From: an uncultured Pelagibacteraceae bacterium | Lineage (GTDB): Bacteria; Pseudomonadota; Alphaproteobacteria; Pelagibacterales; Pelagibacteraceae | DNA length: 44,074 nucleotides | Reading direction: 5' to 3' | Assembly (NCBI GenBank): GCA_902572345.1 | Contig: CACGEW010000010.1 | Location: 1-44,074 of the forward strand | Shown here: positions 8,434 to 22,863 of the stretch, in pieces | Numbering within the stretch: position 1 is the first letter of the stretch | Layout of the letters: each line of letters begins with the position of its first letter | Position numbers and translations under genes: made by a program | Notes under the pieces: generated by a model | Told to the model about the DNA's origin: nothing | Database searches by the model: none | The model's input: the letters and a program-made list of their open reading frames with translations, nothing else

Positions 8434-8470
8434 AAAAAGGCCTAGTGAATTTTCACTAGGCCTTTTTTTT
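8434..8470 (+). terminator. Rho-independent terminator / attenuator between binding protein and permease
   Basis: A 14-bp perfect stem, AAAAAGGCCTAGTG (8434-8447) with CACTAGGCCTTTTT (8454-8467), a 6-base loop and a run of T's to 8470. It sits 10 bases after the binding-protein stop and before the permease start at 8485. It would end most transcripts, or stabilise the 3' end of the upstream message, and so give more binding protein than permease and ATPase. Confidence 0.9.
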
Positions 8471-16591: not shown

Positions 16592-16840
16592 TTGATTTAT
16601 TATGTTTATATGCTCAAATCTAAGGGCATTAAGCCTGTAACATATGTAGGTTATACAAATAATTTAACAAAAAGAATCAGCTTACATAATTCTGGGAAGG
16701 GAGCAAAATTCACCAGAGGACGTATATGGAGGCTAATTTATAAAGAAAAATATAAAACAAAAAAAGAAGCAATTTCTAGAGAATATTATATAAAGAAAAA
16801 TCGATCATTTAGATTTTTTTTAAAAAATAAATACAAATGA
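16592..16840 (+). CDS. GIY-YIG domain protein (UPF0213/YhbQ-like)
   Basis: Small single-domain nuclease-like protein of 82 residues. The motif reads YYVYMLKS (about 3-10) then TYVGYTNNLTKRI (17-29), with the following HNSGKGAKFTRGR and a glutamate in ISREYYIKK. The start is TTG at 16592; the first in-frame ATG would cut off the first half of the GIY-YIG motif, so TTG is preferred. Members are common in SAR11 and other bacteria, and their DNA target and role are unclear. It sits 3 bases after the aldolase stop and overlaps the next glycosyltransferase by 4 bases, at the junction of the carbon and glycan islands. Confidence 0.85.
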   Translation: MIYYVYMLKSKGIKPVTYVGYTNNLTKRISLHNSGKGAKFTRGRIWRLIYKEKYKTKKEAISREYYIKKNRSFRFFLKNKYK

Positions 16841-21871: not shown

Positions 21872-22786
21872 CTATTTGTTAATTAGCTTATTTAAAGCAT
21901 TATTTTTAAACAAATCAGCTTCTTTAATATATCGTCTCACCATATCTACAGATTTATGACCAGTCATAGCCATAATGTTTCTTTCACTTGCGCCTAATTC
22001 TGCAGTAGTTGTTGCAAAACCTGATCTCAAGCTATGTCCAGCATATTTTTTATCGTCCAACCCAGCGTTTGAAGCATGTTTTTTAATAATCAGTGCCACG
22101 TTTTTATCAGATATAGGAAAAATTAAATTGTCCTTGTTCTCGAACATCCAGTTCTTCAAATGTTCGACGGGACAATATTCAATATATTTAAAAGAGGGGA
22201 TGGCTTTAATCATTCCTTCTCCTGATTGATCTGATTTTGATTTTTTTACAAATATTTTTACACCTTCTTTAACAAATTCAACATCATCTCTCGTAATAGC
22301 TACAAGTTCTGATCTTCTAAATCCTCCTGAGAAACCTACTAAAATTAAAGATTTGTCTCTTAATTTTTTAAATTCACTCGCTTCAGAGTCGTTTATTACT
22401 TTAATGATTTGTTTTAAATCATTGAATAATAATGGTTTTTTTGCTTTTTGATGAATGCCTATTTGTCTTTTGATGCCTAATAAATTTTCAACGATTATTG
22501 GATGTTTGGTATCTAAATAATGTCCTTTGTATCTGTGCATGACATTTATAGAGGCTAAACGTCTTTTTAAAGTGCTGTATTTAGATTGTTTCGATAAGTG
22601 CGTCAGATAAAGGGAGACTATTTTTGGATCTGTAGGCATACTTTTCATTTCATGTTTTGAGCAAAATAATACAAAATCATTAAAATCAGATTTATATGCT
22701 CGAATAGTATTTTTAGCTTTTGAAAGCTTTAGATTGTCTAAAGTTTCAATTTCAAGTTTTTTAATATCAGTTGTTAAATCATTCAT
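21872..22786 (-). CDS. Tyrosine recombinase / integrase
   Basis: Site-specific recombinase of 304 residues. A SAM-like N-terminal core-binding domain (about 10-110) precedes the catalytic domain with Arg157 (GGFRRSEL), a lysine near 182-184, His251 and Arg254 (HSLRSG), His277 (TGHKS) and the nucleophile Tyr286 (RRYIKEA). All essential residues are present, so it should be active. It is not XerC or XerD by neighbourhood and lies between a glycan island and an alkyltransferase gene, which fits an island integrase. No excisionase or phage gene is nearby. Its ATG lies two bases from a perfect inverted repeat (22788-22816). Confidence 0.93.
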   Translation of the reverse strand: MNDLTTDIKKLEIETLDNLKLSKAKNTIRAYKSDFNDFVLFCSKHEMKSMPTDPKIVSLYLTHLSKQSKYSTLKRRLASINVMHRYKGHYLDTKHPIIVENLLGIKRQIGIHQKAKKPLLFNDLKQIIKVINDSEASEFKKLRDKSLILVGFSGGFRRSELVAITRDDVEFVKEGVKIFVKKSKSDQSGEGMIKAIPSFKYIEYCPVEHLKNWMFENKDNLIFPISDKNVALIIKKHASNAGLDDKKYAGHSLRSGFATTTAELGASERNIMAMTGHKSVDMVRRYIKEADLFKNNALNKLINK

Positions 22787-22787
22787 A

Positions 22788-22816
22788 ATTTCCGATAACC
22801 ATTAATTATCGGAAAT
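22788..22816. repeat. Perfect 11-7-11 inverted repeat upstream of the recombinase
   Basis: ATTTCCGATAA (22788-22798) and its exact reverse complement TTATCGGAAAT (22806-22816) flank the 7-base spacer CCATTAA. Two 11-base arms around a 6-8 base spacer is the layout of tyrosine-recombinase crossover sites. In the message the same repeat would fold over the GGAAAT just before the integrase ATG, so a translational or transcriptional autoregulatory element is an alternative. I saw no second copy in the window. Confidence 0.6.
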
Positions 22817-22863
22817 AATATATTAAGTGATTTTAGATGTCAATACGTATAATTTGAAAGCTA

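Follow-up and report, generated by a model that had tools for sequence, protein, structure and literature searches.

A 29-bp inverted repeat situated immediately upstream of a tyrosine recombinase gene in an uncultured Pelagibacteraceae bacterium is, with a probability of about 0.83, the recombination site of the adjoining enzyme, and would serve as the dif site of the chromosome. The best reading of the comparisons presented below is a single-recombinase Xer system with a dif-like site, parallel to XerS/difSL, XerH/difH and the XerL system of Legionella. Across the inspected members of the family the site is conserved, it lies at the switch of GC skew in the complete genomes, and site and enzyme change in a coupled manner. 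In such a system, each arm would be bound by one subunit, and a tetramer would bring together the sites of sister chromosomes that have become joined. Strand exchange within the 7-bp centre would then separate the dimer into monomers ahead of cell division, with FtsK as the probable controlling factor.

The recombinase and the adjoining repeat

The gene (21872..22786, minus strand) encodes a tyrosine recombinase of 304 aa (Pfam PF00589, E 3e-20) with a Cre-like fold: Cre was the best solved-structure match to its structure model (pLDDT 80.8, pTM 0.58). Residues R157/R158, K184, H251, R254, H277 and Y286 were invariant in an alignment of five sequences. In its own assembly (990,790 bases, 21 contigs, 92% complete), the recombinase was the sole match to itself and the sole PF00589 gene. 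Its scores were below every curated cut-off of the four NCBIfam equivalog models compared (XerA, 84 bits against 220; XerD, 77 against 330; XerC, 74 against 335; XerS, 41 against 267).

The repeat (22788-22816, plus strand) is made of a first arm, ATTTCCGATAA (22788..22798), a centre of 7 bp (22799..22805) reading CCATTAA on the plus strand and TTAATGG on the gene strand, which is the presumed region of strand exchange, and a second arm, TTATCGGAAAT (22806..22816), matching the first exactly as an inverted repeat. When the arms were extended to 14 nt, the match between the two halves was 93%. Re-reading of the sequence thus returned the perfect 11-7-11 repeat directly 5' of the recombinase that had been described in an earlier, sequence-only reading of this DNA; its distance from the ATG (22784-22786) had been given as two bases and is in fact one (22787). 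By itself, the repeat is just mildly unusual, because 0.17 perfect repeats with 11-nt arms and a centre of 6-8 nt are expected by chance per 44 kb (60 first-order Markov sequences, with a maximum of two repeats in any one) and because the window, i.e. the whole stretch of 44,074 nt that was analysed, contains one further repeat of that class, a terminator-like palindrome at 8436. At 8434-8467, two perfectly complementary 16-nt arms around a 2-nt loop follow a gene for a sugar-binding-protein-like product and probably form a terminator.

Unlike the bare repeat, the conservation of the site is unusual. A set of 49 loci was inspected, composed of the 30 best homologue matches and 20 chosen genomes (11 of them single-contig), minus one duplicate, and the motif GATAA-N7-TTATC, i.e. 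the core of the two arms, was found in identical placement immediately upstream of the gene in all 49. On the gene strand, the centre read TTAATGG in 35 loci, TTAATTG in 11, and TTAATGA, TTTATGG and TTTATTG in one each, according to a hand count of the 49 rows (a scripted count covered 48, with 10 TTAATTG).

Two types of site, A and B, differing in their outer arms, are described below. No second copy of the site with up to three mismatches was present in the assembly of origin. Of the 197 family genomes searched, 53 had one copy each of a type A site with no or one mismatch, and seven had a match with two mismatches, five of these having no closer match. For type B, copy number rests on the sampled parts of G003 and G078, in which no second copy with up to four mismatches was detected. 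Measuring 29 bp, with a pair of arms around a short centre, and found as a single type A copy, the site fits the pattern of single-recombinase dif/Xer systems. The earlier suggestions that the adjoining DNA had been inserted at the site, or that the spacer allows inversion, found no support in these searches: a partner copy was encountered neither in the assembly of origin, nor in the 197 genomes, nor in the G003 and G078 samples. The same reading held that a crossover site would be refuted by the absence of a second copy combined with conservation of the repeat in place. As far as the searches went, this is the situation observed, but the crossover site itself survives, because the two partners recombined at dif are the same site on either sister chromosome.

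Distribution in the family and its sister family

A homologue of the recombinase was found in 150 of the 197 genomes, including 11 single-contig genomes among those listed; the gene was not found in the other 47, and 27 genomes without a match are absent from the listing behind this count. A second survey, covering 148 genomes of the order that were each at least 80% complete, recovered it in 109 of the 123 genomes belonging to the recombinase's family. The recombinase is therefore a core gene of this family. Eight of the 11 single-contig genomes had no PF00589 gene besides it, the remaining three (G009, G017 and G063) having an extra PF00589 match. The 47 genomes without the gene, including five drafts of 93-99% completeness in which PF00589 was entirely missing, count against the dif reading, although gaps in the assemblies around the variable island are a possible cause.

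All 25 genomes of the sister family (G197-G221) gave just weak matches, with identities of 21-26% where listed. When the XerD model was applied, two XerC/D-like genes were detected in each of the 11 sister-family genomes tested (307-325 and 244-257 bits), and the best gene in each of 12 genomes of the recombinase's family reached 65-82 bits; none of these 23 genomes exceeded the curated XerD cut-off of 329.6. A canonical pair of XerC and XerD paralogues was not recovered in the tested genomes of the recombinase's family. Since the sister family has two XerC/D-like genes and the tested genomes of this family only the distant enzyme, a single different enzyme appears to have taken the place of the XerC/XerD pair. 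The retention of both genes in the 11 sister-family genomes tested would place this switch between the two families.

Position at the chromosome terminus

In all five complete genomes, which represent four genera, GC skew turns from plus to minus around the site. The distance between site and skew switch, expressed as a percentage of the chromosome, was 2.9 in G003, 0.1 in G005, 4.3 in G009, 3.1 in G078 and 0.2 in G040; these coarse fits (20 evenly spaced 20-kb samples per genome, 10-kb grid, arcs of 25-75%) had wide bootstrap intervals. Fine maps of the contiguous 100 kb on either side placed the cumulative maximum 559 bp from the site in G003 and 1,866 bp from it in G078, two maps that are not independent because both genomes belong to the same genus. 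The gamma domain of FtsK was found in all 12 genomes tested. A point against the dif reading is that no clear KOPS-like motif emerged among strand-biased 6-8-mers of five genomes, which displayed just a general bias towards purines and A-runs.

Two site types and coupled enzyme change

The outer arms separated the 49 loci into type A, with TTCC (35 loci), and type B, with ACTAAY and near variants (14 loci). In the protein tree, type B enzymes formed one clade of 13, in addition to the long-branched G022, and one or two origins of this type are therefore to be considered. Genera g1, g4 and g9 each contained both types, so that gene and site seem to have been transferred jointly between lineages. 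Such movement of the module between genera counts against the dif reading, as a mobile element would move in the same way.

Residue 228 was K in all 35 type A enzymes and Q in all 14 type B enzymes. It is located at the start of a helix (227-240, as taken from the structure model) and type B enzymes carry an insertion just ahead of this helix, which, by alignment with XerD, would be the helix through which the catalytic domain recognises DNA. We take R259 of Cre, a residue that contacts a G in the loxP arm, to be the counterpart of K228, and the arms of the site presumably resemble SloxP.

Elsewhere, an exact TTCCGATAA-N7-TTATCGGAA was found no more than 300 bp away from 34 recombinases (12 on viral and 22 on genome contigs), and 32 of the 33 that could be aligned had K or R at position 228, although some of them are near-copies. 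The corresponding figure was 7 of 22 in a comparison set of less related or more distantly placed recombinases. Among nine aligned plasmid enzymes, three had Q at this position: that of Sporosarcina is accompanied by a type-B-like AATGATAA arm, that of Salinibacter by ACCGATAA-type arms about 930 bp upstream, and the third by nothing more than a loose repeat, located some 760 bp upstream. A strict residue-228 code was rejected on account of the Salinibacter Q enzyme with its ACCGATAA arms and of the 7 of 22 other enzymes with K or R; as judged from these alignments, the rule linking residue 228 to the arms is a tendency. The earlier proposal that the repeat is the enzyme's own site is very probably correct, given that site type and enzyme type change together and that these arms recur next to related recombinases in phages and in bacteria outside this group.

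Numerous TTCCGATAA-N7-TTATCGGAA sites were also observed on Selenomonadales contigs (Anaerovibrio and Selenomonas; L175, L180, L193, L198, L204, L208, L223, L245 and others), in many cases centred on GTATAAA and extended by TAC/GTA-like sequences, mostly without an adjoining recombinase; some of these genomes had more than one site-bearing contig. Likewise, Saccharothrix contigs (L187, L220, L196, L215 and L251) displayed identical arms around a GGTTCAC centre, on two contigs in S. luteola, and a recombinase match was absent from the stretch examined.

Sites on viral contigs and in phages

The exact type A site was present in at least 120 IMG/VR contigs, against two for a reversed-pattern control. 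The 120 matches listed comprised 25 contigs with a GC content of at least 0.45 and 95 AT-rich ones. A related recombinase was located within 300 bp of the site in 12 of the 120, 11 of which were GC-rich; among the AT-rich matches listed, three had any recombinase match and 92 had none in the stretches examined. Of the 120, 66 had a gene belonging to one shared cluster, the longest sequence of which is a terminase, at a median distance of 384 bp from the site. Three AT-rich contigs tested by protein match pelagiphages, on the basis of sequence identity: the terminase of L084 is 98.6% identical to that of HTVC106P and the terminase of L040 82% identical to those of Skadi and HTVC010P, and L065 has 69% identity to an HTVC027P protein.

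A type B site (call threshold, at least 18 of 22 positions matching) was found no farther than 55 bp from the type A site in 24 of the 95 AT-rich matches listed, two of them duplicates, and in none of 1,900 shuffled flanks. Such neighbouring sites occurred in L084, L034, L056, L093, L105, L118 and others, and were near-abutting in L084, L034 and others. Ten viral contigs among the matches listed had a centre identical to a host centre. Phages of the IMEX type carry a dif mimic and lack an integrase; the viral contigs, which are partial, contained mimics, and no integrated copy was encountered in the host genomes searched. Among the cultured phages examined, nine infecting Pelagibacter and one Methylophilales, no type A site was found either exactly or with up to two mismatches, and three of the ten records contained a match with three mismatches. 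Inspection of terminase leaders by eye revealed, in Greip, a type B pair whose centre measures 6 bp; in HTVC106P, a type A pair lacking one base; and in HTVC100P, half a type A site together with a type B pair; in the remaining cultured phages the sites were degenerate or absent. No close relative of the enzyme was found in phage isolates, the best having about 26% identity among the matches listed.

A phage terminase match was detected in four of the 197 genomes. A prophage residing at the host site was considered and rejected, the recombinase being on a different contig in G068, G183 and G010 and about 180 kb away in G123; within flanks of up to about 1.5 kb, these four terminase loci contained no type A or type B site, apart from one core-only match in G123.

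Promoter, leader and genomic surroundings

A putative promoter of the recombinase gene overlaps the site. The -35 element, TTGACA (22838..22843, minus strand), is conserved, as all 49 loci had TTGAC at a distance of 32-34 nt ahead of GATAA. The -10 element, TATTAT (22815..22820, minus strand), is the best-matching hexamer and overlaps the site by 2 nt; when spacings of 16-18 nt were compared, the best -10-like hexamer was at 17 nt in 44 of the 49 loci. As the -10 element covers two bases of the arm, the predicted start of transcription falls within the site. Because of this overlap, the bound enzyme probably represses its own gene, a role as operator that can be held in addition to that of dif.

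It is improbable, however, that the repeat is an operator alone, to which the recombinase or another regulator binds for the control of its own promoter, with recombination taking place elsewhere. The fixed distance of the -35 element, the contact of the -10 element with the site and the predicted start inside it (49/49 loci) are what an operator would require, but the position at the terminus and the conservation of the central bases are left unexplained, copies of the site are found close to terminase genes on viral contigs of the AT-rich group (of the 95 listed, 92 were without a recombinase match in the stretches examined), and another site for the enzyme was not found.

The surroundings of the dif-like module, in a window with a GC content of 0.288, are conserved on one side and variable on the other. 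In a comparison covering flanks of 1.5-3 kb per locus, an ogt-type methyltransferase gene (TIGR00589; 23028..23303, plus strand) and an AEC transporter gene had homologues in 34 and 35 of the 48 other loci, respectively. On the gene side, the next glycosyltransferase of the window had a homologue in just 3 of 48, its place being taken elsewhere by other glycosyltransferase-like gene clusters. A small GIY-YIG domain protein is encoded at 16592-16840, immediately before glycosyltransferase genes. The asymmetry between the two sides, together with the frequency of related recombinases on plasmids, is what would be expected if the repeat were the attL or attR of an integrated element carrying the glycan island as cargo. 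Such an origin is nevertheless very unlikely: a flanking second copy was not found in the assembly of origin, the 197 genomes or the G003 and G078 samples, and the gene is widespread (150/197 and 109/123) and located at the skew switch.

The alternative given in the sequence-only reading, an RNA hairpin of the leader masking the start region of the mRNA, is hardly credible: the 71-nt leader does fold better than its shuffles (z -2.66, 3 of 200 equally good), but this alternative is weakened by the predicted transcript start within the repeat, which would leave most of the first arm untranscribed, by copies of the site in phage intergenic DNA and beside recombinases of other groups, and by outer arms that vary together with the DNA-recognition helix of the protein.

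Origin and significance

Among annotated records, the best relatives of the enzyme were plasmid recombinases with 34-42% identity (best 15 of 2,159), including those of Alicyclobacillus, Paenibacillus and Protochlamydia; enzymes of viral contigs were equally close (41% for L076, 38% for L101). In five of ten plasmid loci, the 300 bp upstream of the gene contained a symmetric repeat with a 6-7-bp centre, the arms of which were GATAA-like or related. The Chromobacterium plasmid locus, a sixth, had a 9-7-9 repeat whose arms are unrelated, and one of the ten loci had a GTCCGATAA pair about 860 bp upstream. Perhaps the module is of plasmid ancestry, as these likenesses would suggest. A more comprehensive scenario is conceivable, if somewhat doubtful: the ancestor of the family would have lost XerC/XerD and taken up a plasmid-type, Cre-like module, two specificities would since have been traded between genera, and the tandem mimics in relatives of HTVC010P-type pelagiphages would exploit either host enzyme. 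If this is true, the phage mimics, one per type, would serve integration or the resolving of phage genomes.

The dif reading provides a concrete gene and site for what appears to be a group surveyed as lacking dif/Xer, and locates in the tree the switch from two Xer proteins to one enzyme. For pelagiphages, it supplies a link to the host that can be tested. Additionally, the two linked types of enzyme and site represent a natural experiment in recombinase specificity.

Comparison with known systems

According to the survey by Carnoy and Roten in 2009 (PMC2731167), Pelagibacter ubique is without a dif/Xer system, and no evidence for Cre/loxP-like resolvers was obtained in the dif/Xer-deficient proteobacteria. 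This survey was the only literature found on the resolution of Pelagibacter chromosome dimers, and the titles and abstract openings of the papers listed yielded no later report on a SAR11 dif. For pelagiphages and Xer, the only paper found was PMC3861242, in the available text of which Xer occurs solely in the title of a reference.

The canonical XerC/XerD-dif system shares with the present one its catalytic residues, a site at the terminus and the FtsK gamma domain, but it relies on two enzymes instead of one, the arms are symmetric here, and the XerC and XerD models score 74-77 bits against cut-offs of 330-335. Cre/loxP-like systems (Nigri/nox, Panto/pox and Cre; PMC4957104) likewise consist of an enzyme with its own symmetric site nearby; their centre is of 8 bp as opposed to 7, and the present module is chromosomal, widespread within its family and located at the terminus.

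XerL/dif of the Legionellales is a precedent that was identified from similar signs (PMC9765430, also for what follows). It has a single recombinase, and its site, of 29 bp and with long symmetric arms, is located close to the maximum of GC skew; this group, too, had been described as being without dif/Xer, and a mobile element carries a mimic of the site, as do the viral contigs here. The likeness is one of anatomy, and the XerL gene of L. pneumophila is more than 400 kb away from the site, whereas gene and site are adjacent here. XerS/difSL and XerH/difH (PMC5357621) are also made of one recombinase with dif near the gene as one module. Their proteins are longer (354-362 aa, against 304-334 here), the centre of difSL measures 11 bp and not 7, and the XerS model gives 41 bits for a cut-off of 267. 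The site adjoining the recombinase gene, as observed in all 49 loci, is nonetheless a trait of XerS and XerH and not of XerL.
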